Positions 1-29,963 of a stretch of 31,677 nt of DNA are shown here, piece after piece. The notes below the pieces were generated by a model. It worked only from the letters and a program-made list of their open reading frames with translations. It did not search any database and was not told where the DNA came from. Source of the DNA: a virus. The stretch is taken from the IMG/VR virus record IMGVR_UViG_3300025120_014927, positions 1-31,677 of that record; one strand, given 5' to 3'. The first letter of the stretch is position 1. Every line of letters begins with the position of its first letter. The translations under genes and the position numbers were made by a program.

Positions 1-361
1 ATTTACCTTTATAATCTACAGTAGCAAGTTTATCATATACTGTTAAGTTTTTATAACCTTTAAGAATACTTAAACTATTAATTTCTGATGTATCTTTATA
101 CCATGCATCATGATTACCAGTTATCATAGTAATATTAAAATCCTTAAACTTATCTAATAAATCTTTAGCAAAATTTAAAGTCTTAACTGAAATTTCATCT
201 CTATAATGAAAAAAGTCACCACAAAATATAATATCTTTAATACCCTGAGACTTTAAATTGGTAATATACCAATCAGCCCATTTATTAGCTATACCTAACC
301 AGAAATCATTATTCTGGTGTACACCTAAATGTATATCAGAAAATATAGCTACTTTATTCAT
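1..361 (-). CDS. 47: gp47/SbcD/Mre11-like recombination nuclease subunit (partial, C-terminus outside window)
   Basis: Reading leftward from an ATG at 361, the first 120 codons encode a calcineurin-type metallophosphoesterase. Visible motifs are FSDIHLG (residues 7-13), GDFFH (48-52) and GNHD (82-85), the metal-binding motifs of the Mre11/SbcD family. In T4, gp47 pairs with the SMC-like gp46 to resect DNA ends for recombination-dependent replication; that role is inferred from family and context. The start overlaps the end of the gp55-like gene by 8 nt, and gene 55 next to gene 47 is a T4-like arrangement. The gene continues past the left edge, where gp46 would be expected next. A generic phosphoesterase is the alternative, but the neighbourhood favours gp47. 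Confidence 0.85.
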   Translation of the reverse strand, partial: MNKVAIFSDIHLGVHQNNDFWLGIANKWADWYITNLKSQGIKDIIFCGDFFHYRDEISVKTLNFAKDLLDKFKDFNITMITGNHDAWYKDTSEINSLSILKGYKNLTVYDKLATVDYKGK

Positions 362-827
362 TCGGTTCTGTATCTATATCATCATACATCGGTTTAATAT
401 AAACCCGACCATCCATTGAATTTAACATTTCCTGTTCATAAATTTTCTCTTTATATTGGCTTAAGGTCTCGGCATGTTTCTTTTCCTTTTTAATTCTATT
501 AATAAAAGCATGGAATGCAATAGTAGTAAAATATGAAAATGGATTGTATTCAGAATCTACATTGAATTTTTTATTAGTAACTGCTGTATACATCTTAACC
601 AAAGCATCCCCTACCATTTCATCTCGATAAGTGTAGTTAATAAAATTAGATGAATAACTTAAACCATGAGCAATTTTATGAATCATTTCACCTAATTTAG
701 GTGTACAATCTTCACATTCATAATATGCAACTAGTTCAGCTTTTAATTCTCGTGGATCTACATAGTATTCAGTCTTTTTTGGTTTTGGACCTCTACGCTT
801 ACCAGTAGTTTTTTTAGTATTAGCCAT
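354..827 (-). CDS. 55: gp55-like sigma factor for late transcription
   Basis: The 157-residue product has a basic N-terminus (KKTTGKRRGPKPKK) followed by a sigma70 region-2-like core at about residues 65-118. The core includes YRDEMVGDALVKMY and NPFSYFTTIAFHAFINRIKK, which resemble T4 gp55, the sigma factor that directs host RNA polymerase to late promoters with the sliding clamp and gp33. It is slightly shorter than T4 gp55 (185 residues). It overlaps the gp47-like gene and lies downstream of uvsW. A sigma70-like promoter sits immediately upstream, inside the 3' end of uvsW, so the gene can be expressed before late genes. The late boxes elsewhere in this window are its likely targets. Confidence 0.88.
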   Translation of the reverse strand: MANTKKTTGKRRGPKPKKTEYYVDPRELKAELVAYYECEDCTPKLGEMIHKIAHGLSYSSNFINYTYRDEMVGDALVKMYTAVTNKKFNVDSEYNPFSYFTTIAFHAFINRIKKEKKHAETLSQYKEKIYEQEMLNSMDGRVYIKPMYDDIDTEPNE

Positions 828-833
828 ATAATA

Positions 834-861
834 ATTATAGCATATGAATACTACTTTTCAA
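834..861 (-). promoter_or_regulatory. sigma70-like early promoter for the gp55-like gene
   Basis: On the minus strand TTGAAA (861-856) is followed by a 16-nt spacer and TATAAT (839-834). Six nt separate TATAAT from the ATG at 827, so +1 would fall on the start codon. The -35 box lies within the last codons of uvsW. Confidence 0.7.
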
Positions 862-2269
862 CTATATCAGTCAATGTAAAATTAATTTTTTCAGATTTAT
901 AAATTTCTTTTCTTTTTTCTGAATGACGGGTACCATATTTTAATTTATCTGCAAGATCTATAATAATTAATTTATTTTTACTTTCATGCAATCTTAAACC
1001 TCTACCAATCGATTGTATTGTTCTTATAAAACTTTTACCCCCTGATGCAAACATAATCATATGTATATTTTTAATATTAACCCCGGTACTAAAAATAGAA
1101 CTCATTGCAATACATATAACGTCATTATTAGTTTCCATTATCTTTTTAATTTTATCTCTTTCTTCTACATCAACTTCACCTTTAACGAAATAAACTTTCT
1201 TATTATCAATTTGAGATAAGTTATCAAATAATGCATCTCCATGTGCTAAATGATTAACCAAAATAAGAGAATTATTATTAAATTTAGAACATATATTTTT
1301 AATAACATTATTTCTATAATTATTAGTATATATAAAATCTAATTCTGCTTTAAAATTATTACCACCACTTACTACAAGAGGTTTATCTTTATAGCCTATA
1401 TTGATAACCTTAATGTCTACGTTAGTTAGATAGCTCTCTAACCTAAGTTCATAACTATCCTTATCGTATATCACTTTACCCAATTTACCAATGACATTCC
1501 ATTGCTCTGGTTTATCATCCGGTAATGTACCAGTTAAACCAAATTTATTAAAAGTATGTATTTTATTTACCATCTTACTAATTTTGTTTGATTTTTTTAT
1601 CGTATGACATTCATCAACCACTAAAACATCGATATATTGTATCCAATCATTATCATCAAACTGACTCTGCAATATACCCCGATTAGCTATAATACAATTG
1701 GCAGTTAAATCAGGTTTTATTTTACCAGTCCATCTGGTAAATTTAAATAATACATTATATTCTATAAAATCATTAAATGTTTGATTAACTAAACCGAGAT
1801 CAGGTACCAATATTAAAATTTTAACTTTTGGATTATTAGAATAAAGACTCATTAACAATGAAGCAATTGTTAAAGTTTTACCTCCACCAGTACCTAGTTT
1901 TATAATACCTCTTCCAAATTTTAATGCTTCTTTTACTGAATCTAATTGATAATCTCTCAATGGAAACTTTAAATTATCATATGCCCTTTCTTCTTTATAT
2001 GTTGGTTTAATAATAGGTAAAATATCTTGGTCTATTTGATAATCTGTATTAGGGTATTCTAGCTTTATATGACTTAAAATATCGAAAAAAAGACCTGGTT
2101 CAAAGAGACCTGTAGGTGTTATACAATATACTCTAGAGTTAGAATAAAATCTCGCCCTCCCTCTCATTCTAAAACGAGCTGTTTCATCCTTTACACTAAA
2201 ATGTTCTCGTATATCATCTAAATCATCTGTTATTAATCTAATTTTTTCTTTAACTAATTCAAATTTCAT
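851..2269 (-). CDS. uvsW: UvsW-like superfamily 2 helicase
   Basis: The 472-residue product has the full SF2 motif set: Walker A GTGGGKT (126-132), DECH box (219-222), motif III TGT (246-248) and motif VI QSIGRGLR (419-426). About 100 N-terminal residues precede the helicase core, as in T4 UvsW (503 residues), and the core is entered at FPLRDYQLDSV, a Q-motif-like segment. T4 UvsW unwinds R-loops and branched DNA, helps the switch from origin-dependent to recombination-dependent replication, and rescues stalled forks. Its ATG overlaps the uvsY stop codon by one base (TAATG on the minus strand), so the two genes are probably cotranscribed and translationally coupled. Confidence 0.92.
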   Translation of the reverse strand: MKFELVKEKIRLITDDLDDIREHFSVKDETARFRMRGRARFYSNSRVYCITPTGLFEPGLFFDILSHIKLEYPNTDYQIDQDILPIIKPTYKEERAYDNLKFPLRDYQLDSVKEALKFGRGIIKLGTGGGKTLTIASLLMSLYSNNPKVKILILVPDLGLVNQTFNDFIEYNVLFKFTRWTGKIKPDLTANCIIANRGILQSQFDDNDWIQYIDVLVVDECHTIKKSNKISKMVNKIHTFNKFGLTGTLPDDKPEQWNVIGKLGKVIYDKDSYELRLESYLTNVDIKVINIGYKDKPLVVSGGNNFKAELDFIYTNNYRNNVIKNICSKFNNNSLILVNHLAHGDALFDNLSQIDNKKVYFVKGEVDVEERDKIKKIMETNNDVICIAMSSIFSTGVNIKNIHMIMFASGGKSFIRTIQSIGRGLRLHESKNKLIIIDLADKLKYGTRHSEKRKEIYKSEKINFTLTDIVEK

Positions 2270-2664
2270 TATAATTGTTCCATTTTCATTATTTCAATAA
2301 TATTCTTAATATCGAAACCTACAGCACTAAATGTTTTTTCAGTTTTTTCTAAAAACTCAATAATTAATTCCTCATTACTAATTTTTTCAGATATTTCTTT
2401 CATTTTTTCATGTCGGTAACTTGCTTTTTCTGCTACCGGTATAGTGACTTTAACAGGGCTTTCTTCTATAATTTTTTGAACCACTTCTTTCTTTACTGAA
2501 TCTCTAAGTATTCTAAGTTTTAATAGATTTTGTTTATGTCTTATTAATTTAGATACCCAATAATGCTTACGTGCTGGTGCTTTCATCGATGAATCTTTAA
2601 GATTAAATTCATTAATTTGTAAATCTTTTTCTATTTCATCTATATATTGGTCTAATAAACTCAC
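2269..2664 (-). CDS. uvsY: UvsY-like recombination mediator
   Basis: The product is 131 residues (T4 UvsY is 137), mostly helical and charged. The segment HYWVSKLIRHKQNLLKLRIL corresponds to the YSKWLNKHSSIKKEMLRIEA-like part of T4 UvsY. The C-terminal IEFLEKTEKTFSAVGFDIKN matches the conserved T4 tail with ..SRGFAIKHI. UvsY loads the UvsX recombinase on ssDNA displaced from gp32. The assignment rests on these two segments, the length and the position directly before uvsW. The start is GTG at 2664, chosen because a TATAAT box lies exactly 6 nt upstream and no ATG near the start is in frame. Confidence 0.82.
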   Translation of the reverse strand: MSLLDQYIDEIEKDLQINEFNLKDSSMKAPARKHYWVSKLIRHKQNLLKLRILRDSVKKEVVQKIIEESPVKVTIPVAEKASYRHEKMKEISEKISNEELIIEFLEKTEKTFSAVGFDIKNIIEIMKMEQL

Positions 2665-2670
2665 TTATTA

Positions 2671-2698
2671 ATTATAAATACTAATATGAAGAAAACAA
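2671..2698 (-). promoter_or_regulatory. sigma70-like early promoter for uvsY-uvsW
   Basis: On the minus strand TTGTTT (2698-2693), a 16-nt spacer and TATAAT (2676-2671) stand 6 nt before the GTG of uvsY. The -10 box overlaps the plus-strand late box TATAAATA (2673-2680). Confidence 0.6.
2673..2680 (+). promoter_or_regulatory. late promoter box TATAAATA
   Basis: This is an exact copy of the T4 late-promoter consensus. Its last A lies 6 nt before the ATG at 2686. It overlaps the minus-strand TATAAT of uvsY by four bases. Confidence 0.75.
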
Positions 2699-2955
2699 CT
2701 TTATTTGAAAAAGCATTTAAAAGAAGCCTTAAAAGAAAAAAGACCCCAGAAGAAGATGAAAATACAGTTGGGGGAGGCGCTCTAGGTTCTGCAGCAGCAA
2801 CAGGATATGGTACGACAGTCAGTGGTACACCAGGTACAGATGCTTACGCCCCGGGGGATTTTAGAAGACCGACAGCTTTAGGTGCAATGTATTCCAGAAA
2901 AGGTAAAGTAGGTAAAAAGAAAAGAAAAACTAGAAAATCGAAGAATAAAAAGTAA
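2686..2955 (+). CDS. small basic late protein, function unknown
   Basis: I do not recognise this 89-residue protein. Both ends are strongly basic (FKRSLKRKK near the N-terminus; KVGKKKRKTRKSKNKK at the C-terminus), flanking a Gly/Ala/Thr/Pro-rich middle with no predicted globular core. It lies directly behind a perfect TATAAATA late box, which suggests a virion or DNA-condensation role. Its TAA stop is part of the next late box (AGTAAATA). Low-complexity composition makes homology detection hard. Confidence 0.65.
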   Translation: MKKTTLFEKAFKRSLKRKKTPEEDENTVGGGALGSAAATGYGTTVSGTPGTDAYAPGDFRRPTALGAMYSRKGKVGKKKRKTRKSKNKK

Positions 2956-6247: not shown

Positions 6248-8241
6248 TGAACTTTAAACAACACCATACAGTACTGTTAGAATTCTTTGATGCAATAGAT
6301 GGAGCAGTAAAGCATATCGATCATTTAGAAGAAAATATACTTAATAAAGGTAAGCAAGGTGTTATAGAAGCTATTAACCAAATAGAATCTTCTATATCAT
6401 ATTTTGTAGACGAATCTGATTATAAAATATCTACTAAGTTTGATGGGGCACCTGCTATCGTTGCAGGTATAGATACTAATAATAAATTTTTTGTAGCAAG
6501 TAAATCAGCTTTTGCTAAAAATCCTAAAATTAATTATACAGAGCAAGATATTACCACAAATCATGGTACCGGTGGGTTAGCAGATAAATTAAAATTAGCT
6601 TTACGTTATTTACCATCTTTAAATCTTAAAGGGATTTATCAAATGGATTATATGTTTGACCCTCAAATGAAAACATTTGAAACCCCTGAAACTATTGATG
6701 GTGTAAAAAATGAAAATAAATTTTTAACTTTTACTCCAAATACTATTAAGTATGCTGTTACAGAAAATAGCCCCTATGGTGATCAAATAGCTAGATCCAA
6801 GATAGGAGTTGCAGTTCATATTGAGTATATGGTTCAAAACGGTATATTGAAAGTTAAAAAATATACTTCTTCAACAGATGAATTTACCCCATCTAATACA
6901 GTGTTTGTTTTTAATGTATTGGCAAATAAACCTAAAAACAATAAATCATCTTTTAGTAAATTACTTTTAAAGGATGTTAAAACAAAAAAGAAACAATTAC
7001 TTAAGTTGGCTGATAAAGTCGATTTTAGTGCATTAGATGATTATACTAGTACTTTAAAATCTTATATTAACTCTGAAATAAGATCTGGAAGATTTTTGCA
7101 AGATACAGCGATGTCTACAGAAGAATATGTCGGCTATATTTCGAATCGTTTTACAAAAGAATTAGAAAAGCTAAAGAGTGAAAAAGGTAAAGCTAAAAAG
7201 ACTGAGCAAATGAAAGTAACTTTAAAAACCTTACAAAAGCTTAAACCTTCAATAAAAAATGCTTTTGAAATTACTAAAATCATAGCTAATTTAAAAAATA
7301 ACCTTATTAAAATTTTTAATGAAATAACTAAAAATGATCTATTAGGTACATATCTTGAAGAAAGTCCTAATAATTGGCAAACTACTGCCCCTGAAGGTTT
7401 TGCACTATCTAAAGTTACTGCAGCAGGTGCAGAAATTACTAAATTAGTTGATAGAGAAGAATTTAGTCGGGCTAATTTTGGTACTGGTAAACCTACATCA
7501 CCAGAAAACCAAGAATCATATATTACTAATCCCCCGGTATTTAATAGAGGTGAAGGTACAAGATTACAATCTAATCCAACAGGAGGTAGAAAAATTGGAG
7601 CTTTTAATGAGATGTATGAAATGTTAAATGAATTTGAAGATGCAGAAGATTTAACAAAAACGGTAGTAATTTACCCGGGTAGATTTCACCCGTTCCATAA
7701 AGGTCATGCATCAGTATATAATAAATTAAAACAAGAATTTCCTACAGCTGATGTATTTATTTCTACATCTGGTAAAACTAATGACACTAATTCACCTTTT
7801 GAATTTGAAGAAAAGAGAATGATGATACAAAGTGCTGGTATTGATCCGAGTTTTGTTGAAATGACAAAAAATCCTTATTTAGCAAAAGAAATTATCGATA
7901 ATTATGATTTAGAAAAAACTAAACTTATATTTGCTGTATCTGAAAAAGATATGCAAGGAGATAGACCTAGATTTGCTTTTGGTTTAAAGAAAGATGGTAA
8001 GCCTAGTTATTTCCAACCATATGATAAATCTAAAAAATTAACTAGTGGTAATAAACATGGTTATATAGCAACATTACCTACTATGGATTTTAGTATTCTC
8101 GGTAAAGATATTAGAAGTGCATCCCAAATAAGAGAATTATACAAAGGTTTAGATGAAAAGGAAAGAAGAGATCTTATTCAAGATCTCTACGGTTCAATGG
8201 ATGAGGAAGTTAAACGTATATTCGATAATAAACTGGTTTAA
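6244..8241 (+). CDS. ligase-like nucleotidyltransferase fused to an HxGH adenylyltransferase-like domain
   Basis: The 665-residue product has two domains. The N-terminal one resembles the phage family annotated DUF6267 and carries KFDGAPA (Lys65-x-Asp-Gly). This matches the nucleotidyl-lysine motif of ATP-dependent ligases; YQMDYMF and VHIEYMV look like later motifs. The C-terminal domain (about 470-665) is NMNAT/cytidylyltransferase-like: YPGRFHPFHKGH has the HxGH motif at 485-488 and DIRSASQIRELY (622-633) matches the ISSTxIR-type motif. The N-terminus, MMNFKQHHTVLLE|FFD, is another leader ending in Leu-Leu-Glu. The start may be the second ATG (6247). The substrate is unknown; NAD-linked or nucleic-acid end repair is possible. 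It is coupled to the PD-(D/E)XK-like gene by a 4-nt overlap. Confidence 0.72.
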   Translation: MMNFKQHHTVLLEFFDAIDGAVKHIDHLEENILNKGKQGVIEAINQIESSISYFVDESDYKISTKFDGAPAIVAGIDTNNKFFVASKSAFAKNPKINYTEQDITTNHGTGGLADKLKLALRYLPSLNLKGIYQMDYMFDPQMKTFETPETIDGVKNENKFLTFTPNTIKYAVTENSPYGDQIARSKIGVAVHIEYMVQNGILKVKKYTSSTDEFTPSNTVFVFNVLANKPKNNKSSFSKLLLKDVKTKKKQLLKLADKVDFSALDDYTSTLKSYINSEIRSGRFLQDTAMSTEEYVGYISNRFTKELEKLKSEKGKAKKTEQMKVTLKTLQKLKPSIKNAFEITKIIANLKNNLIKIFNEITKNDLLGTYLEESPNNWQTTAPEGFALSKVTAAGAEITKLVDREEFSRANFGTGKPTSPENQESYITNPPVFNRGEGTRLQSNPTGGRKIGAFNEMYEMLNEFEDAEDLTKTVVIYPGRFHPFHKGHASVYNKLKQEFPTADVFISTSGKTNDTNSPFEFEEKRMMIQSAGIDPSFVEMTKNPYLAKEIIDNYDLEKTKLIFAVSEKDMQGDRPRFAFGLKKDGKPSYFQPYDKSKKLTSGNKHGYIATLPTMDFSILGKDIRSASQIRELYKGLDEKERRDLIQDLYGSMDEEVKRIFDNKLV

Positions 8242-8257
8242 CCACCAAAACCAGTTT
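8230..8257. terminator. bidirectional stem-loop terminator between convergent genes
   Basis: A perfect 10-bp inverted repeat (aaactggttt at 8230-8239, aaaccagttt at 8248-8257) encloses an 8-nt loop. It spans both convergent stop codons (plus 8239-8241, minus 8238-8240). The U-runs after the stems are short (TTTCTTT on plus), so termination is likely but not certain. Confidence 0.6.
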
Positions 8258-8783
8258 CTTTAGCAGTTTTAGTCATATCATCGACATCTAGTTCCAAATC
8301 ATCATCTTCAGGGTCTTGTTCATCTTCTATATCTGCATCTAAATTATCATACTCTAATGCATGGTAAACTGATGATAGATAATCAGCAGCTTTAGTTATT
8401 TTGGAAGCTGTCCAACCTTCTAAATTATCTAAATTTTCAAGATGGTTAAATAATTTAGTTGCATATTCTGCAGCTTTAAGTAATTCAGATCTTGCCATAT
8501 CTAATTCACCATCATAATCATTATTGCAGTCGTCGCAATCGCAATCACTTTGACACTCATCTTGGTCACCAGCTTGAATAAAAACTGTTTCTTCTTCTTT
8601 TTCAGCATCTTCACAATCTGCTAAACCTTCTTTATCACCAATTTTCATTACCACTACTTTAGAAGCAGTATTTTGCGAACCTGGTCCAGGTACATTTACC
8701 ATTTTACCCATCGCACGATTGAGGCCGCTCATTTCATTTAATGATTTATATTGCTCAAAAATTAAATTAGATTCGTTATCCAT
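8238..8783 (-). CDS. acidic Cys/Asp-rich late protein with leader-like N-terminus
   Basis: I place the start at ATG 8783 (181 residues) rather than the in-frame ATG at 8813, because a late box ATTAAATA ends exactly 6 nt upstream of 8783 and the longer form would overlap the divergent gene. The N-terminus MDNESNLIFEQYKSLNE|MSG contains two hydrophobic-x-Glu sites. A cluster around DECQSDCDCDDC could bind metal. The C-terminal half is helical, then very acidic (DIEDEQDPEDDDLELDVDD). Acidic composition suggests a prohead core-type or DNA-mimic protein; neither is proven. It converges on the ligase-like gene with a 4-nt overlap. Confidence 0.65.
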   Translation of the reverse strand: MDNESNLIFEQYKSLNEMSGLNRAMGKMVNVPGPGSQNTASKVVVMKIGDKEGLADCEDAEKEEETVFIQAGDQDECQSDCDCDDCNNDYDGELDMARSELLKAAEYATKLFNHLENLDNLEGWTASKITKAADYLSSVYHALEYDNLDADIEDEQDPEDDDLELDVDDMTKTAKETGFGG

Positions 8784-8788
8784 ATTAA

Positions 8789-8801
8789 TATTTAATAAAT
8801 A
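8789..8801. promoter_or_regulatory. bidirectional late promoter TATTTAATAAATA
   Basis: On the minus strand ATTAAATA (8796-8789) ends 6 nt before ATG 8783. On the plus strand AATAAATA (8794-8801) ends 6 nt before ATG 8807. The two boxes overlap back to back, forming a near-palindrome. Confidence 0.65.
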
Positions 8802-8806
8802 ATTAA

Positions 8807-9118
8807 ATGACATTCGATAAACTATATACTTCTCTTATGGAAGCATTCGATGAAGACGCAGAATATAAAGGTAGAAAAGTAACTCTTAATAAACCTACTA
8901 GAGGAGATGTTAAAAAGTTTAAGGTGTATGTAAAAAATCCTAAGACTGGTAATGTAAAGAAGGTTAATTTTGGACATGGTGGTACATCTGCTAAAAGGAA
9001 AACAATGAGAATACGTAAATCTAACCCAGGTGCTCGTAAATCTTTCAGAGCACGTCATAAATGTGATCAGAAGAAAGATAGAACAACCGCAGGCTACTGG
9101 TCATGCAAAAAATGGTAA
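8807..9118 (+). CDS. small basic protein with capsid-targeting-like leader
   Basis: The 103-residue product begins MTFDKLYTSLME|AFDED, a leader ending Leu-Met-Glu. The rest is a compact basic domain with VYVKNPKTGNVKKVNFGHGG, SNPGARKSFRARHKC and a C-terminal YWSCKKW. I recall this NPKTGNxKKVxFG...NPGARKSFRARHxC pattern in other T4-like marine phages, where it has no assigned function. Two Cys and several His/Lys suggest metal or nucleic-acid binding. The leader suggests packaging in the head. It is followed by three more leader-bearing genes at close spacing. Confidence 0.7.
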   Translation: MTFDKLYTSLMEAFDEDAEYKGRKVTLNKPTRGDVKKFKVYVKNPKTGNVKKVNFGHGGTSAKRKTMRIRKSNPGARKSFRARHKCDQKKDRTTAGYWSCKKW

Positions 9119-11782: not shown

Positions 11783-12808
11783 ATGGATATTAATAAAATT
11801 AGTATCAATAGATTTAATGTTGATTATACCACTAAAAGAAACAATAGAGCAAAGTTAGATACTGGGTTTCATTGTAACTATCACTGTGAGTTTTGCTATT
11901 ATCTAGATAAACTGGATCAGAAAACGTCATATGATACCATTAAAGAGCGTATAGATATTTTACACTCATACGGTATAGATGAAGTAGACTTATCAGGAGG
12001 AGAAAGCTCTATACATAAAGATTGGTTTAAAATATTAGACTATTGTAATGGTAAATTTAAAAATATAAGCTGTTTAAGTAATGGTTCGGCATTTTCTAAT
12101 GAAAAGTTTTTATTAAAATCAAAAGAACATGGATTAAAAGAAATTTTATTTAGTTTACATGGTTACAATGAAAAGGTTCATGATGATATAGTGGGAAGAA
12201 AGAATGGTTGGAAGAAAATTAATAAAGCAATAGATCTATGTAATAAACATGATATACGGGTTAGAATAAACTGTACAGTTTACCAAAAAAACTATACAGG
12301 TTTAATAGCTTATGCTGATATTATTAAAAAAATTAAACCTTTTCAAGTAAATTTTCTTACTTTAAACTACTGGGATGATAATAAAACGTTTGAACCTATA
12401 GATGATTATAATAAACTAACCGATAATATAAAAAGATGTATAGATTTAATAGTTAATGATGTAAAATATATTAACGTTAGATATACACCTTATTGCTTTA
12501 TGAAAGGTTATGAAAAATATGTATGTAATCAATATCAACATGTATATGATGTATATGACTGGAATAAAGAAATATATGACTATGATATTGATGTAACTAA
12601 AACATATACACATAATCAAAAAATAGAATTAGGATATGCTAAAGCTAGACATGATAGACTCACTGATTATAAAAAATCTTTAGCCTGTTTTAAGTGTAAA
12701 TATTTTTATATTTGTGATGGTATTGAAAAACAATTAGATATGGAAGTTTATCCTGAGCCTGGTGATAAAATACGGGATGTTAATCATTATAGGAAAGATT
12801 TTTACTAG
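11783..12808 (+). CDS. radical SAM protein with SPASM-like C-terminal cysteines
   Basis: The 341-residue product has the radical SAM cluster motif C31-x3-C35-x2-C38 (HCNYHCEFCYY) and the SAM-binding SGGESS segment (71-76, equivalent to GGEP). A C-terminal group CFKCKYFYICDG (about 300-311) could bind an auxiliary Fe-S cluster, as in SPASM or twitch proteins. Such enzymes generate a 5'-deoxyadenosyl radical and modify peptides, sugars or cofactors; the substrate cannot be read from sequence. Its TAG stop shares a base with the GTG start of the next gene. Confidence 0.85.
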   Translation: MDINKISINRFNVDYTTKRNNRAKLDTGFHCNYHCEFCYYLDKLDQKTSYDTIKERIDILHSYGIDEVDLSGGESSIHKDWFKILDYCNGKFKNISCLSNGSAFSNEKFLLKSKEHGLKEILFSLHGYNEKVHDDIVGRKNGWKKINKAIDLCNKHDIRVRINCTVYQKNYTGLIAYADIIKKIKPFQVNFLTLNYWDDNKTFEPIDDYNKLTDNIKRCIDLIVNDVKYINVRYTPYCFMKGYEKYVCNQYQHVYDVYDWNKEIYDYDIDVTKTYTHNQKIELGYAKARHDRLTDYKKSLACFKCKYFYICDGIEKQLDMEVYPEPGDKIRDVNHYRKDFY

Positions 12809-13773
12809 TGAGATATTTAAAATTAGATAAAAGTTATGATTTATTCTTAACAATGACATGGAATAATGATAATAATCATGGAATATCTGGTCATTTGTAT
12901 GAAATATTAGAATATTACTTGGTCCTAAGCCGGCATATGAAAATTGGCATATTAATATGCGAAGATATGAATTGGAATACAATTGAAAAAGCAATTAAAT
13001 CAAAATATAATATAAAAAATAATATAATTAATGAAATTAAAAGTAATACTATTTTTTATAATCGGCCTAAGTTTGTATCAGGTAAAAATATATTATTTGT
13101 TGATGGGGGATTTACTAGAACCTCGTTAAGGGACGGTATAGTTTTATCTTTTGATAATATATTTTCATTTAGATGTTCTAATAAAGATCACCACTATAAT
13201 TTACCTTATAAAAATATAACTTTACTACAAGATCAAAGAGTTTATAATGATAAAGATAATGAAATAGCTATAGATTATAAGAAAAAAATAAAGTTTAACA
13301 TTTATAATGATATTAAAAAGGTACAAACTGAAACTGCACTGTTATATATAACCACAAACTGTAGAAAACTGTGTAGTAATTATTTACTTGATGTAGTTAT
13401 GCAGTATAAGTTTAAAAATTATATAATTCTAACTAATCAGCCAGAATTATACAAGGAACAATTTAAAAATATAAAAAATGTAACTTTCCCTGCTATGCCT
13501 TTAGATAATATATTTGAAAAGTTTGATACTTATATATATACTCCAACTTATTCGGTAACTAAACAAGAATTAGGTTGTTTTGACTGTAGTCCAAGATTTA
13601 TAGCAGAATGTAAGTATTATAATAAAGATGTTGTATACCATAATATAGATAAAAAATATTTAGACATAGATACCGGATTAAAATATAGAAAATTAGATAT
13701 AAAAAATAATTTTGAAAGTATTTTTTTAAATGAAAACGATCAACTAATTAATATTTTAAATGGCAGAATTTAA
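12808..13773 (+). CDS. putative glycosyltransferase-like protein
   Basis: The 321-residue product starts at GTG on the last base of the previous stop. It appears to have two alpha/beta halves: an N-terminal one with NHGISGHLYEILEYYLVLS, and a C-terminal one with LLYITTNCRK, YIILTNQPELY and a helix-loop FDCSPRFIAECKYYNKDVVYH. The latter resembles the donor-binding end of GT-B glycosyltransferases, where a conserved acidic/Ser-Pro-Arg segment is followed by a helix and a short strand. Context (glycan genes on both sides) supports this, but no diagnostic motif is definitive. It overlaps the next radical SAM gene by 14 nt. Confidence 0.5.
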   Translation: MRYLKLDKSYDLFLTMTWNNDNNHGISGHLYEILEYYLVLSRHMKIGILICEDMNWNTIEKAIKSKYNIKNNIINEIKSNTIFYNRPKFVSGKNILFVDGGFTRTSLRDGIVLSFDNIFSFRCSNKDHHYNLPYKNITLLQDQRVYNDKDNEIAIDYKKKIKFNIYNDIKKVQTETALLYITTNCRKLCSNYLLDVVMQYKFKNYIILTNQPELYKEQFKNIKNVTFPAMPLDNIFEKFDTYIYTPTYSVTKQELGCFDCSPRFIAECKYYNKDVVYHNIDKKYLDIDTGLKYRKLDIKNNFESIFLNENDQLINILNGRI

Positions 13774-14782
13774 AGAAAAAATAAATTCATTTGAAATAAT
13801 AAAAACAAATGAATGGCCAGAATATGATTTAAAAGTAACTCTAAAACCGTGTTTTAGGTGTAATCATAAATGCTGGTTTTGTGAAGAATATAACAATAAT
13901 ACCAAAACGTGGACAAAAGAACAATGTGATCAAGTTTTAGAAAAAATCAAAGATATTCCTGTAAGTAAGAAAAAAATATTTTTTTATTTTTATGGTGGTG
14001 AACCAACTTTAAGTAAACACTGGGAGTATTTAAATTATAAACTGGTAGAAATTTTTAAAGATAGGGAACTTTTTATACAAACTCAAACAAATTTAAGTAT
14101 TAATAAAAAAAGATTAGAAAACTTTTTAATAAAAATTAATAAAATTAAACAATCAAATCATAATATAGATATATGCAGTAGTTATCATTTAAACAAACAA
14201 AAAGTTCAAGATTTTATTGAAAAAATGCATATTTGTAAAAAATATGATAGTTTAGGTCTATGCTTTTTTAGTACTGAGTTACCTAAAAAAGAACAAACTT
14301 TAAAAGAATTATATAAAATTCTAGATGTATTCCCTAATAAATTAAAAATGAGATTTACTGAAACTGAAAATTTGGTTAATAAAAATATTAAAGGTTATGA
14401 AGAATATTTAAAAGATAGTTTTCTCGTAAATGATGATAAAGGTAAAAGTCTAGAATTTAGATATTGGTTAAAAAATTACCCTGAATTAAAAAAATATTTT
14501 GAAATTGGCTGGAATTTTAATGTTAATGATAAAGTATTTAATTTTTCTGAAGTCACCGGTTATAATATACATAAAAAATTTAAATTTATGAAGTGTGACT
14601 GTGGTATCAAAAATATGGTTATAGATCATAACTTAAATACATACCACTGTAATGATGATTTTTATAATGGTATTAATATAGTTAAGTTGCAAGATTTAAA
14701 TATTAGTACATATTTGAATAAATCATTAAGATGTTTAAATAATCATTGTTATGATGGTTTAGATCATAAAAAATATCGATGA
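13760..14782 (+). CDS. radical SAM protein
   Basis: The 340-residue product has C34-x3-C38-x2-C41 (RCNHKCWFCEEY) and the SAM-binding YGGEPTLSKHW. The C-terminal region carries further Cys (KCDCGIKNM, TYHCNDDF, RCLNNHCYDG), consistent with an auxiliary cluster domain. It is clearly a different subfamily from the tandem pair that follows. A 14-nt overlap with the preceding gene and an ATGA overlap with the next indicate tight operon coupling. Substrate unknown; sugar, peptide and lipid-linked substrates are all possible. Confidence 0.84.
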   Translation: MAEFKEKINSFEIIKTNEWPEYDLKVTLKPCFRCNHKCWFCEEYNNNTKTWTKEQCDQVLEKIKDIPVSKKKIFFYFYGGEPTLSKHWEYLNYKLVEIFKDRELFIQTQTNLSINKKRLENFLIKINKIKQSNHNIDICSSYHLNKQKVQDFIEKMHICKKYDSLGLCFFSTELPKKEQTLKELYKILDVFPNKLKMRFTETENLVNKNIKGYEEYLKDSFLVNDDKGKSLEFRYWLKNYPELKKYFEIGWNFNVNDKVFNFSEVTGYNIHKKFKFMKCDCGIKNMVIDHNLNTYHCNDDFYNGINIVKLQDLNISTYLNKSLRCLNNHCYDGLDHKKYR

Positions 14783-15738
14783 AATTATTAGAAACAGGTT
14801 TTAAAGATCATAAAGATATTACATTTAGCTGGGAATTAACCGATCAATGTCAGTATAGATGTAGTTATTGTTATGTGAGAGAAATCTTGAAAAATAAAAT
14901 TGATGAGAAGGATATATTAAAATATAAAAATGTATTAAAAAAATTTAAATTAAATTCAATACCTGGGTTTAGAGTTGAAATTTTAGGTGGTGAACCTACT
15001 ACCCATCCTTTTTTCTTAGATATATTAGATGATTTAGAAAAAAATGATAAATGTAAGTTTCTTTCTGTTAATACAAACTTAGCAAAACCAGCATCTTATT
15101 ATAAACAATTTTCTGATAAAACAAAATATAAAAAATTAGAATTTAGTATATCAGTTCATATTGAATATATAAAAAATGTTAATAAATTTTGCGATAAAAT
15201 TAAAGAAATTTATAATGCTGGTGTTAAATGTTTTGTTAATTTAAATTTACATAAAGATATAAATAAAATACCAATTTATAAAGAAATACTTAATCAATGC
15301 TGGGATAATAATATTAATGCTGGTGTTAACTATCTTTTTTCGACTGATAATTATGATAGTAAATTTACTGATGAATATCATGAAACGATTGATAGAGAAT
15401 TAATAGAACCGTTAAAACATAAGTTAGGTAATAAAGAAAAAATTTATATTGATCATGAAAAATTCCCTTTTGTATATGATAATGGTGAAACGAAATACTA
15501 TGACTTACATGAAATAAATAAATATAAACTTAAAAGTTTTAAAGGTTATAATTGTAGACCAAAATTATGGTATATAACAAAAAATGGGGTTTTTAAAAAC
15601 TCTTGTACTGGTGAAATAGCTGATTTTTTATTTAAAAATTTAAATAAATGTGTAAAATGCCCATTAACAGAGTGTGCATGTGATTTTATGTTTTATTACC
15701 ATAAAACAGCTCCCGGCCAACTCAAACCTAAAGAATAA
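14779..15738 (+). CDS. radical SAM protein, tandem paralogue A
   Basis: The 319-residue product has C24-x3-C28-x2-C31 within FSWELTDQCQYRCSYCYV and the SAM motif EILGGEPTTHP. A SPASM-like C-terminus has six Cys (YNCRPKLWYITKNG, NSCTGE, KCVKCPLTECACDF). It is closely similar along its whole length to the next gene, which indicates duplication and divergence. The GVFKNSCTGE segment is typical of SPASM proteins, where a Cys follows a turn. It follows the previous gene with an ATGA overlap. Substrate not identifiable. Confidence 0.85.
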   Translation: MKLLETGFKDHKDITFSWELTDQCQYRCSYCYVREILKNKIDEKDILKYKNVLKKFKLNSIPGFRVEILGGEPTTHPFFLDILDDLEKNDKCKFLSVNTNLAKPASYYKQFSDKTKYKKLEFSISVHIEYIKNVNKFCDKIKEIYNAGVKCFVNLNLHKDINKIPIYKEILNQCWDNNINAGVNYLFSTDNYDSKFTDEYHETIDRELIEPLKHKLGNKEKIYIDHEKFPFVYDNGETKYYDLHEINKYKLKSFKGYNCRPKLWYITKNGVFKNSCTGEIADFLFKNLNKCVKCPLTECACDFMFYYHKTAPGQLKPKE

Positions 15739-15743
15739 AAAAA

Positions 15744-16823
15744 ATGAATTTAGATAAAACTTATAGTGATTTTACTGATACTAATATAGATGAAATAATA
15801 CATTTTACTAAAAACAAAAATAATTTTATTTTTAGTGATTATATTGAATCAGGGGATGAAGAAGATAAAGAACCTGTTAATTTTAGTTGGGAATTAACAT
15901 ATTACTGTCAGTATAGATGTACTTATTGTTATGCCTTTGAACAGTTAACTAAAAAACCAGATCCAACACTATTAAAAGCATACCCTATAATTTTAAAAAA
16001 ATTAAAACTTAGATCAATTCCTGAATTTAATATAGAATTACTAGGTGGTGAACCAACCACCCACCCTAATATTTTTGAAATAATTGAAGAACTAAATAAA
16101 AACGAAAAATGTAAAAGTATAGAATTAGTAACTAATATTGCTAAACCGGTATCGTTTTATAAAAAGTTTGACGATAAAAAATATAACAAACTTATAATTA
16201 GTGCTTCTTACCACAATGAATACGATAAAAATGATAGGTATTTAAAAAAATGCATTGAGTTAAATAAATTTAAAAACGTAAGATTTTTTAGCAATATTAA
16301 TTTTGCACCAGAAAAAGAAAAGTGGTCTAAAACGTTTAAATTAATAAAAGATTTAAGTAAAAATAATGTAATGTCTCATTTTAATTTATTGCATTCAACA
16401 AAACAATATGAAGGATTTGATTTCGGTTATGATTATAAAACTGGCAAATCATGCTCAGAAAACAATACAGACCAAATGATGAGTATGGTATTGGAATTTT
16501 TAAACTTTTGTAAAGTTAATTCTGAAGAAAATTTTGATATTTTTAAAAATACTATTCAAAGAAATATAAGATATAAAGATAAAAAGGGTAGAGAAGTTTA
16601 TATTCCAGAACTATTAATTAGAGCTTTAAAGCTTGATAGATTTTATGGGTGGAAGTGTAGTGCAAAAATGTGGAGTATAACTCCTTTAGGTAATATTCAT
16701 AATGATTGTACAAACGAAAATCTTGATATATTAAATAAAAAATTAACGAACTGTGTGACATGTCCCCTTAAAACCGGTTGTCAGTGTGATCTAATGCTTA
16801 ATTATAAAAAAATAAGGCAGTAG
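15744..16823 (+). CDS. radical SAM protein, tandem paralogue B
   Basis: The 359-residue product has C55-x3-C59-x2-C62 within FSWELTYYCQYRCTYCYA, then ELLGGEPTTHP and a six-Cys C-terminus (WKCSAKMWSITPLG, NDCTNE, NCVTCPLKTGCQCDL). It aligns with the preceding paralogue but has an extra 30-residue N-terminal extension and an insert of about 35 residues around 230-280 (SENNTDQMMSMVLEFLNF). Retention of all cluster ligands in both copies suggests each is active, perhaps on different positions or substrates. It ends one base before the stop of the convergent minus gene. Confidence 0.85.
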   Translation: MNLDKTYSDFTDTNIDEIIHFTKNKNNFIFSDYIESGDEEDKEPVNFSWELTYYCQYRCTYCYAFEQLTKKPDPTLLKAYPIILKKLKLRSIPEFNIELLGGEPTTHPNIFEIIEELNKNEKCKSIELVTNIAKPVSFYKKFDDKKYNKLIISASYHNEYDKNDRYLKKCIELNKFKNVRFFSNINFAPEKEKWSKTFKLIKDLSKNNVMSHFNLLHSTKQYEGFDFGYDYKTGKSCSENNTDQMMSMVLEFLNFCKVNSEENFDIFKNTIQRNIRYKDKKGREVYIPELLIRALKLDRFYGWKCSAKMWSITPLGNIHNDCTNENLDILNKKLTNCVTCPLKTGCQCDLMLNYKKIRQ

Positions 16824-26882: not shown

Positions 26883-27725
26883 ATGTTAAAAAACCCGTAT
26901 ATATTATTTCATTTAAATAAAAAATTTAATTTAAAAGATAAAAAAATAAAATGTATAAATGAAAATGTTTTATTATTTGATAAAAAAATTATTAAAGCAG
27001 AAAGTCAAATTTTTAAAATATTAATTGATGATATAAAAAAAATCTATAAAATTTATAATAATAAATTTTTACCTAATTATAAATTTTTATGTAAAGAAAA
27101 TATATATTATTATGATTTAACCTCAGGTAATCTTTTATCACACCACAAATGTAATTTTTTAAATAAACGAAAACTTTATAATAATATTATAGAATTTATA
27201 AAAAAAACTAAAAGTATAAAAACTAAAAATTTTAATAAAATATCAAAAAATCAAACAGAAATAAAAAGTGATAATATTTCTTTTATTTTTTTAGAAAAAC
27301 AATATATACAACAGTTTAGTAAAAAAAATATAAAATTATACAATGACATTATAATTTTGTATAACTCAATAAAAGGTAAAAAATTAAAAAGTCATAAAAA
27401 AATGCTGTTTTACATTGACTTTAATTATCATAATTTTATTATTGATGAAAAATATAATATAACAAGAATTGATTTATCAGAAGGTTTATCTTTTTATGAT
27501 TATTTACAAGTTATACCATACTATATTGCATTACTCTGGAAAACTAATGATATTAATTTAGTAAAAAAGGGTATAATAGAATGCAATTTAAAGCGTGAAA
27601 AAGATATAATTTTAAAAATGTCTTTTATATTATATTGTTTATATATGTTTCGTAGTTTTAAAAAATCACCTAAAGATTTAAAATTTAATAGAAATATATT
27701 TAAAACAATAAAATCTTTATCTTAA
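26883..27725 (+). CDS. kinase-like (APH/choline-kinase-type) protein, possibly catalytically altered
   Basis: The 280-residue product is very AT-rich in coding and Lys/Asn/Ile-rich. FYIDFNYHNFIIDEKYNITR (177-196) followed by IDLSEG resembles the phosphotransferase core HxDxxxxN...hDhS: Asp179, Asn184 and Asp197 are present, but the His position is Ile178. Hence it may be an aminoglycoside-phosphotransferase-like kinase of a small molecule or sugar, or a degenerate relative. Its composition and character match the glycan island, so it may be a displaced island gene. It converges on folE2 with a 9-nt overlap. Confidence 0.58.
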   Translation: MLKNPYILFHLNKKFNLKDKKIKCINENVLLFDKKIIKAESQIFKILIDDIKKIYKIYNNKFLPNYKFLCKENIYYYDLTSGNLLSHHKCNFLNKRKLYNNIIEFIKKTKSIKTKNFNKISKNQTEIKSDNISFIFLEKQYIQQFSKKNIKLYNDIIILYNSIKGKKLKSHKKMLFYIDFNYHNFIIDEKYNITRIDLSEGLSFYDYLQVIPYYIALLWKTNDINLVKKGIIECNLKREKDIILKMSFILYCLYMFRSFKKSPKDLKFNRNIFKTIKSLS

Positions 27726-28769
27726 ACCAGTAGTTTCAAATACATCTCTTGCAACACCTGCTGAAAAGCCTCCTTCAACACCTTTAACTATAACTGATAT
27801 AGCATTATGACTATGTAGACTTTCATTATGAGATGCTACAATCTTAAAGTCTTTAATACGAGACTCACTACTAAGCTTTTCATACATTAAACGTACCGCA
27901 TCTTCAACAAACTTTAGATTAGAACCATTTAGTTCAGCAAACGCTTGCTCATCTTCTCTCTTAACCATAACTTGAGTCTCAGTTTGTAAAGCAGCTAAGC
28001 ATAACTCTTGTATATCTTCTACCCATAACATATCGTCAAACTTAACACTAACTCTTGCAACACTTCGTTGGCTATGAGGTACAGTAGCACGGTTACGATA
28101 CTTCTCAGCATGCTCACTCAATTCAAAGCTACAAGGACATGCAGATGAATATACAAAGTCAAAGTGAATATACTTCTTAAATTCTCCATCCTTAGTTACA
28201 TCACCTTCAAATACTACATCATAATATTGATAACCTTCTAACCCACTACGTAAACTAGTTTGCTTAATAGGATATGAAATTTTAAGCATAATTCTTGAGT
28301 CGAAGCATTTAAGATTCTCTCTATACGACTCTAATACATCTTTAATATTATTAATACTAAAAATATCATCCTTATGGTCATAAAAACTTCTCATTATACG
28401 AGACATATTAATGCCTTTCTTATGAGCTTCTAAACTAACACTACCAGTTACACTAGTTTCAAGATTAATGGTCTTACCATCTCTCTTCTTATATGTTAGA
28501 GGTAACTTAAAATTATGTATACCTACTTGTTGAATAGGTACTGCAGCCCCTTGAATTAAACTTGATGGTCCATTCTGTAGGTCAGGTAGCGATGAAATAT
28601 ATTTTCTATCAGCTTTAACCTTATTATCATAAACTCTAATAGGTGGAAAATAACCCTTACTATATTCTTCACCCATTAATTCTTTTGCAATAATATCTTT
28701 TTCACCAGTAAGTTCACTTTCACTTACATCATCACCTAACCACTCATAATTATTATTTTTATCGGACAT
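27717..28769 (-). CDS. folE2: GTP cyclohydrolase FolE2 (type IB)
   Basis: The 350-residue product shows the FolE2 motif set: VGIHNFKLPLTY (82-93), KGINMSRIMRSF (118-129), SACPCS with the active-site Cys (209-214), HSQRS (232-236) and ESLHSHNA (316-323). FolE2 makes dihydroneopterin triphosphate from GTP, the first step of both folate and 7-deazaguanine (preQ0) synthesis. With QueD 1.3 kb away, a phage 7-deazaguanine DNA-modification or queuosine pathway is plausible; QueE and QueC are not in the window. A sigma70-like promoter with -10 exactly 6 nt upstream drives it. About 60 extra N-terminal residues precede the conserved core. Confidence 0.92.
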   Translation of the reverse strand: MSDKNNNYEWLGDDVSESELTGEKDIIAKELMGEEYSKGYFPPIRVYDNKVKADRKYISSLPDLQNGPSSLIQGAAVPIQQVGIHNFKLPLTYKKRDGKTINLETSVTGSVSLEAHKKGINMSRIMRSFYDHKDDIFSINNIKDVLESYRENLKCFDSRIMLKISYPIKQTSLRSGLEGYQYYDVVFEGDVTKDGEFKKYIHFDFVYSSACPCSFELSEHAEKYRNRATVPHSQRSVARVSVKFDDMLWVEDIQELCLAALQTETQVMVKREDEQAFAELNGSNLKFVEDAVRLMYEKLSSESRIKDFKIVASHNESLHSHNAISVIVKGVEGGFSAGVARDVFETTGLR

Positions 28770-28775
28770 ATATCT

Positions 28776-28803
28776 ATTATACCGTATAGATTAAATATTT
28801 CAA
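28776..28803 (-). promoter_or_regulatory. sigma70-like early promoter for folE2
   Basis: On the minus strand TTGAAA (28803-28798), a 16-nt spacer and TATAAT (28781-28776) stand 6 nt before ATG 28769. A plus-strand late box (28790-28797) lies inside the spacer. Confidence 0.72.
28790..28797 (+). promoter_or_regulatory. late promoter box ATTAAATA
   Basis: The last A is 6 nt before ATG 28803. It overlaps the spacer of the folE2 early promoter on the other strand. Confidence 0.55.
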
Positions 28804-29963
28804 TGACCGATAAAGAATTATTTGAGAAAGTTGAAAACAAATTTTTACCTGAAAAATCTCTTAAATTAGAAAGATTTAATAAAACAAAATTTCAAAAAGT
28901 TTTAAACGAAATAAGAGGACCATCTTCTCCAGGCAATGTAGGTGCAGGAGTAGGTAGTTTTTTAAATAGAGCTGCTGCAGCTATTCCTGGTACAAGAGGG
29001 TATAGAATGAGAAGTGCAGAAGCTAGAAAACAAGAAGCTTTAGCAAAACAAGAAGAATTAAAAGCTCAACAATCTGAAAAAGATTTGCAAGGTGGTGGTT
29101 CAAAAAAAATGAGTGAAACTACTGCTAAATTTTATGAAGCCAACCCTCAATTTGCTACAGCCTATGATTTAGCTAAACAAGGTAAAACATTATCATCTGA
29201 ACAACAAAGACTTTATAATAAAATTTTAAAACAAATTGATACTATTGAATCAGGTAAAGTGCAAAAAGCTGGTAAGCAAGAAGCTCAAAAAGAAAATAAA
29301 AATATAGCTGGTGAACGTATACTTAAAAGATTGAGTGCAACTGCCCCGAATATAACTAAATTTTTAATTGATCCAAAGAATAAAGCAACAAAAGATTTAT
29401 ATATAAAATATATTCTACAAGATGATGCATTAGGTATACCTACTGAAAAAGAAATAGTACAACTTGCACAAAATTTAACTAAAATATTGCAAGCTAATGT
29501 TACTGAAATTAATAACTTTAAAAGATTTATTAGGGATCAATACTCGCTCCAAGATAAAGGAGCTGGTCTAATTAAATTATTACCAAGTGCTCCTAGTAAA
29601 GATAAGGGTACAGGTAAAACTAAAAAAATTACCTTAAGACCAGAAACTGTTCAACATTTTATTAAAAAAGATATTGAAAAGTCAGGTAGAACAATAGCAG
29701 ATCAAATGAAAGAAATGGTAAGACAAGCTAATAAAAAATATAAAGAAGGTAATTTAGTCAAAGGTACTGGTAAACCACCAGCAAATTATAAAATTATGGA
29801 TATTAATAATGAAACCGGTCTTATAACAGTACGAAGTGTAAACGATAATAGACCGTATTATAAATTTGCAAAAGATTTAGGTGAAGTAATAGAAAAGGGT
29901 GCACGACAACCAGAACTAAATTTACCGGAGAGCTTCGACCAAGTTATAAAAAGATATAGATAA
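28803..29963 (+). CDS. hypothetical late protein, possibly virion-associated
   Basis: The 386-residue product is not recognised. It has a helical N-terminus with KTKFQKVLNE (about 27-36), which resembles the packaged-protein leaders but sits internally. A Gly/Ala-rich segment (GNVGAGVGSFLNRAAAAIPG) and a coiled-coil-like Ala/Glu/Lys stretch (SAEARKQEALAKQEELKAQQ) follow. The C-terminal half is basic. No enzymatic motif is visible. The late box and composition resemble the genes at 2.7-10.9 kb, suggesting a head-interior or structural role by inference. Confidence 0.66.
   Translation: MTDKELFEKVENKFLPEKSLKLERFNKTKFQKVLNEIRGPSSPGNVGAGVGSFLNRAAAAIPGTRGYRMRSAEARKQEALAKQEELKAQQSEKDLQGGGSKKMSETTAKFYEANPQFATAYDLAKQGKTLSSEQQRLYNKILKQIDTIESGKVQKAGKQEAQKENKNIAGERILKRLSATAPNITKFLIDPKNKATKDLYIKYILQDDALGIPTEKEIVQLAQNLTKILQANVTEINNFKRFIRDQYSLQDKGAGLIKLLPSAPSKDKGTGKTKKITLRPETVQHFIKKDIEKSGRTIADQMKEMVRQANKKYKEGNLVKGTGKPPANYKIMDINNETGLITVRSVNDNRPYYKFAKDLGEVIEKGARQPELNLPESFDQVIKRYR

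Follow-up and report, generated by a model that had tools for sequence, protein, structure and literature searches.

Interlocked, putatively leaderless early and late promoters between uvsY and a divergent gene in an uncultured clade of marine T4-like phages

The late promoters of bacteriophage T4 consist of an 8-bp TATA box at the place of the -10 element with no -35 element, and transcription from them depends on gp55, gp33 and the replication clamp (PMC2988020). Phage phi29 offers a different arrangement, in which the early promoters A2c and A2b and the late promoter A3 lie next to each other in one region and are switched by p4 and p6 (PMC3100819). Among bacteria, the Deinococcus-Thermus group is known for -10 elements that are adjacent to ORFs and give leaderless mRNAs (PMC12340547). 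We describe here a phage locus at which a predicted sigma70-type early promoter and a predicted T4-type late promoter face away from each other, each placed at a start codon, and use some of the same bases.

The DNA analysed, hereafter the window, is one virus record, 31,677 bases long, with a GC content of 26%. Matches to PHROG and Pfam place gp55, uvsW, uvsY, folE2, PTPS and PhoH genes in it, and the calls of UvsY (PF11056), gp55 (phrog_234) and folE2 (PF02649) made in a previous sequence-only reading were correct. The product of ORF 2686 has no match in PHROG or Pfam, and that of ORF 28803 has no significant family match in either. A tRNA search of the window found none. A search with uvsW turned up relatives of the gene in 98 viral-contig stretches, and 80 loci were retrieved; gp55 is encoded in all 11 of the relatives checked for it (contigs of 34-197 kb). 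A DNA-level search among isolates returned no relatives of the window, and protein searches found no phage-collection isolate at 60% identity, all cultured phages being below 60%. The window belongs to an uncultured clade of marine T4-like phages. Coordinates of the features under discussion are collected in Table 1.

Table 1. Genes and predicted promoter elements at the two divergent sites of the window.
Feature	Position	Strand	Remarks
gp55-like late sigma factor	354..827	-	downstream of uvsW; phrog_234 6.9e-29
uvsW helicase	851..2269	-	downstream of uvsY; phrog_16 4.6e-70
uvsY recombination mediator	2269..2664	-	GTG start; PF11056 4.5e-5, phrog_231 3.6e-10
uvsY early promoter (predicted), -10 TATAAT	2671..2676 (2676-2671)	-	plus strand ATTATA; 6 nt before GTG
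T4-type late box TATAAATA of ORF 2686	2673..2680	+	5 nt before ATG at 2686
ORF 2686, 89-aa basic protein	2686..2955	+	late box upstream; relatives in most loci
uvsY promoter (predicted), -35-like TTGTTT	2693..2698 (2698-2693)	-	spacer 16 nt; within codons 3-5 of ORF 2686
folE2 (GTP cyclohydrolase)	27717..28769	-	PF02649 7.9e-73
folE2 promoter (predicted), -10 TATAAT	28776..28781 (28781-28776)	-	6 nt before ATG (28769)
Late box ATTAAATA of ORF 28803	28790..28797	+	inside 16-nt folE2 spacer; 5 nt before ATG; predicted +1 = 28803
folE2 promoter (predicted), -35 TTGAAA	28798..28803 (28803-28798)	-	spacer 16 nt; takes in A of opposing ATG
ORF 28803, 386-aa protein	28803..29963	+	late box upstream

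The sequence-only reading had proposed that the -10 element of uvsY shares four bases with the late box of the divergent gene, and this is borne out, since positions 2673-2676 belong to both. Only 21 nt separate the start codons of uvsY and ORF 2686. If the +1 of a T4 late promoter is counted as 13 bases from where its box begins, and that of sigma70 as seven bases past the -10, the distances of the boxes put both predicted start sites on a start codon: 2664, the G of the GTG of uvsY, and 2686, the A of the ATG of ORF 2686. Both transcripts would then be leaderless, with predicted start sites that diverge and lie 22 bp apart.

It should be said that the strings themselves carry little weight. 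In the window TATAAATA occurs 10 times against 19 expected, and the 10-bp composite TATTTATAAT once against 2.45 expected, so the over-representation of the composite that we tested for is not seen. Since such strings are not rare in DNA of 26% GC, the evidence must rest on position, gene class and conservation. What is beyond chance is the exact placement of the boxes relative to start codons and, at the uvsY site, their conservation.

The placement is a feature of the whole clade, and it is the part that the previous reading missed: it saw both overlaps in the window, but not the leaderless layout that produces them. Many genes in the window have a late box ending 5 nt ahead of their ATG, and a TATAAT ending 6 nt ahead of the start codon is found at gp55, uvsY and folE2, so that late boxes sit 13 nt and TATAAT 12 nt upstream of start codons, both abutting them. 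The gp55 gene thus has a leaderless-spaced TATAAT of its own, 6 nt upstream of its ATG. In the relatives, position was examined with a simple caller of the longest ATG-started ORFs that is blind to promoters. TAAATA stands exactly 11 nt before the ATG in 39 of 113 upstream hits in a 185-kb relative (G001; p=1e-47), in 30 of 85 in a 197-kb relative of 37% GC (G003; p=2e-37), and in 26/53 and 17/51 in two others (G002 and G006), with p-values of the peak from 1e-21 to 1e-47 over the four. TATAAT lies 11-13 nt before the ATG in 20 of 87 hits in G001 and 17 of 61 in G003 (over these four genomes, p ranges from 1e-6 to 3e-12). The exactness of the position, together with the peak in the 37%-GC genome, rejects A/T-richness by chance as the cause. 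Spacings of 14-15 nt are enriched as well, which makes leaders of 0-2 nt likely. Shine-Dalgarno-like tetramers precede only 4-10% of the genes in the clade, as against 73% in T4, 65-69% in Melnitz, 66% in Mosig and 24% in P-SSM2, and no start-codon box peak appears in the stretches of these phages that were examined (T4, 70-120 kb; Melnitz, two 50-kb stretches; Mosig, 1-50 kb; P-SSM2, 80-130 kb). A promoter at a fixed short distance, with no Shine-Dalgarno sequence, is the sequence signature of leaderless genes, and we infer both the start sites and leaderless translation in the clade from it.

The two boxes also go with different kinds of genes. Gene classes in G001 and G003 were taken from the annotated T4-like proteins that each gene resembles. 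Among virion genes for which a promoter was called, 22 had the late box and 3 TATAAT, whereas among genes of replication, recombination and nucleotide metabolism the numbers were 3 and 16 (Fisher p=1.7e-6). The caller used here gives preference to starts that have a promoter; this raises the totals but should not of itself produce the split. The late class resembles the T4 late promoters in its TATAAATA-like box at the -10 place of the predicted start site, in the gp55 gene that accompanies it, and in the virion genes downstream. As a side observation, there is a second class of TATAAT promoters, in which AGGAAC precedes the -10 by about 5 nt. This class makes up 28 of 80 early-type promoters and includes that of the DNA polymerase gp43. 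Examples in G001 (L085-L094) are found at 27723-, 42131-, 66675-, 97182+ (gp43), 173071+, 173680+ and 177558+, and the class is present also in G002, G003, G006, G007 and G009. AGGAAC is a candidate middle-promoter element with a putative activator.

Conservation was followed at the uvsY site over 76 loci, amounting to 47 distinct sequences, in which the identity of uvsY goes down to 40%. Read toward uvsY, they have in common TTGWTT-N16-TATAAT-6 nt-start, a conserved pair of -35 and -10 hexamers whose spacing falls within the 15-19 bp of sigma70-type promoters. The composite TATTTATAAT is perfect in 41 of the 47 and has one base changed in the other six (two with one C in the late box, four with TATACT); there are no indels at the composite, and the one departure in layout is a subgroup in which 3 nt more separate the late box from the opposing start codon. 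The TTG of the -35 is kept in 47/47. This element lies within the opposing coding sequence, where the wobble positions -33 and -30 inside it are 100% and 94% conserved, compared with 49-72% for the neighbouring wobble positions -36, -39, -42 and -45, which points to a constraint on the DNA rather than on the protein. The uvsY interlock is essentially invariant in the relatives checked.

The second overlap is of a looser kind. A late box of the 28803 gene had been placed within the spacer of the folE2 promoter, and it is indeed there, as ATTAAATA at 28790-28797, an imperfect match to the consensus. A TTGA...TATAAT promoter is found near the ATG of folE2 in nearly all of 49 distinct upstream regions. 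What varies is which gene lies opposite and where its late box falls: the box may be in the spacer, over the -35 (TATTTATTGA), or just upstream of the -35. A conserved register of overlap was tested for at folE2 and rejected, since both the register and the late partner gene differ between relatives; a facing late box nevertheless recurs.

Head-to-head arrangements of this sort are common in the clade. On seven contigs, divergent pairs less than 150 nt apart with both promoters called comprise 48 early/late, 15 late/late and 2 early/early pairs, in counts for which the caller again favours starts with a promoter and several contigs have orthologous pairs in common. For G001 and G003 together, 24 of 34 pairs are early/late against 16.3 expected from label shuffling (p=0.005); taken singly, G001 gives p=0.12 and G003 p=0.034. 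The early/late excess over expectation is modest, and part of it may come from early genes lying mostly on one strand, as they do in G003. Gaps of 60 nt or less separate 21 of the 26 divergent pairs in G001. An early promoter called opposite ORF 8807 (ORF 8238-8813) is probably spurious.

The best explanation of the uvsY site, which we favour with some reserve, is a pair of divergent, leaderless and mutually exclusive promoters, at which the late polymerase should displace early initiation at uvsY-uvsW. Its computed part is made up of the anatomy, the positional enrichment, the class split and the conservation; from these we infer the start sites, leaderless translation, the occlusion and its regulatory effect. 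A host-type holoenzyme would use TTGWTT-N16-TATAAT to transcribe uvsY from its GTG, along with uvsW and probably gp55 by read-through, and a gp55 holoenzyme would use TATAAATA to start ORF 2686 at its ATG. The 5' ends of both transcripts would coincide with the start codon or lie no more than about 3 nt from it, and for this reason boxes pinned 12-13 nt from start codons that are 21 nt apart must share DNA. The sizes of polymerase footprints are established. With start sites 22 bp apart and diverging, the two footprints would overlap almost fully, which makes simultaneous occupancy implausible; one bound polymerase would exclude the other, and mutual exclusion of early and late polymerases at this site is physically expected. 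As the gp55-clamp polymerase builds up during replication, it would displace early initiation at uvsY-uvsW. Any feedback on gp55 through uvsY would be only partial, because gp55 has its own early promoter.

The sequence-only reading had gone one step further and proposed a built-in early-to-late switch. By position, gene class, conservation and the gp55 gene next door, both boxes appear to behave as real promoters, the geometry of neighbouring early and late promoters that would exclude one another is present at uvsY, and the exclusion predicted from it is well founded. The proposal is partly supported to this extent, for the promoters and the exclusion; the step from exclusion to a switch is a conjecture. 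The strict overlap at uvsY fits a constraint, but it is also what two leaderless promoters at fixed distances would give in a gap of 21 nt. Two essential promoters of this type would freeze the uvsY geometry even if occlusion had no value, and the variable register at folE2 and the modest pair excess also speak against a regulatory reading. An extension to the whole lineage is tentative: sigma70 early and gp55 late promoters would have moved onto start codons, most operon heads would be leaderless, and the many interlocked early/late pairs would amount to a distributed switch by which the late polymerase shuts early genes, including the operon leading to gp55.

A rival that we regard as possible, though doubtful, accepts both promoters as real and leaderless and takes their overlap as a by-product of packing two fixed-distance promoters face to face in a very short gap, with shut-off achieved by another mechanism and occlusion having no regulatory role. 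It draws support from the commonness of short gaps noted above, from overlaps that involve now the -10, now the spacer, the -35 or the AGGAAC element, no register being preferred, from the varying partner and register at folE2, and from the 15 late/late overlapping pairs, for which an early-to-late switch is impossible. It does not account so readily for the excess of early/late pairs, or for an interlock at uvsY that was never resolved in any of the 76 loci. That only one of the two overlapping boxes is functional and the other an A/T-rich coincidence is very unlikely: chance alone would yield either string a few times in DNA of this composition, but every element is conserved, including the late box and the -10 beyond the bases that they share, and the -35. 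The least credible alternative, that TAAATA and TATAAT before the ATG are translation signals in A/T-rich, unstructured start regions and not promoters at all, can appeal to the need for some start signal where Shine-Dalgarno sequences are missing and to A/T-rich translation starts known in other groups, but founders on the two distinct boxes that split virion from replication genes, on the placing of each box such that the +1 of its sigma falls on the start codon, and on the -35 conserved at a fixed 16-nt spacing inside the opposing gene.

Several observations on gene content may be recorded here. The nearest cellular relatives of folE2 are mostly from marine Flavobacteriales (59-67% identity), three MAG contigs aside. 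These three (L207-L209), labelled 'Planctomycetaceae/Rhodopirellula', carry relatives 79-82% identical, the other cellular ones being at 26-67%, and are possibly phage contigs binned into MAGs. The affinity to Flavobacteriales is no firm guide to the host, because the TTGA/TATAAT promoters are unlike those of Bacteroidota. A run of radical SAM genes at 11783-16823 of the window (phrog_27238, 24890 and 13987 twice, with one gene of unknown function between) has its last two radical SAM genes alike at the DNA level and, with folE2 and PTPS in the same window, is compatible with a possible modified-nucleotide or peptide pathway. The 197-kb relative G003 encodes a tmRNA (L095, 15777-16193) with the tag AANKVVDFVLPQAEPQFALAA.

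Should the favoured reading of the uvsY site and its layout hold, leaderless mRNAs would be the templates from which a marine phage lineage translates many operon heads, an uncommon trait among T4-like phages that would call for a host, or for phage factors, capable of loading ribosomes with no leader. Exact start sites could then be predicted for many genes from the sequence alone, and the uvsY interlock would be a small system, open to experiment, in which host and phage sigma factors compete directly for the same promoter bases. In the literature searched, the coverage of which was incomplete, we found no report of leaderless promoters in T4-like phages or pelagiphages, including a clade-wide layout of this kind for both classes.

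A close likeness is to the late promoters of T4 (gp55/gp33/gp45), with which the clade has in common the 8-bp TATAAATA box at the -10 place, a gp55 homologue and the use for virion genes. In the T4 stretch examined, however, the box mostly stands 17-47 nt upstream of the ATG, and a Shine-Dalgarno-like sequence lies in the interval, whereas in the clade the distance is exactly 13 nt and no such sequence intervenes. The cultured SAR11 phage HTVC008M (L122), a Pelagibacter phage, comes nearer in spacing, with eight late boxes exactly 13 nt before an ATG in its first 50 kb (p=3e-11), at 6280, 7562, 11972, 16007-, 18916-, 18943, 19456 and 31132; it also has a divergent late/late pair in a 26-nt gap. 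It is distantly related and differs in that only some late genes are so arranged, there is no leaderless TATAAT class, and about 50% of its starts are Shine-Dalgarno-like. Deinococcus-Thermus genomes likewise have a TATAAT-like element upstream, within a few bases of the start codon, but they are cellular, and the phages described here have -35 elements and a second box, for a phage late sigma, placed in the same way. Phage phi29 resembles the uvsY site in having early and late promoters side by side, with a switch between them at one site (PMC3100819) such as would operate at uvsY; in phi29, however, it is made by the DNA-binding p4 and p6, whereas here two sigma specificities would compete for shared bases, at many sites per genome.
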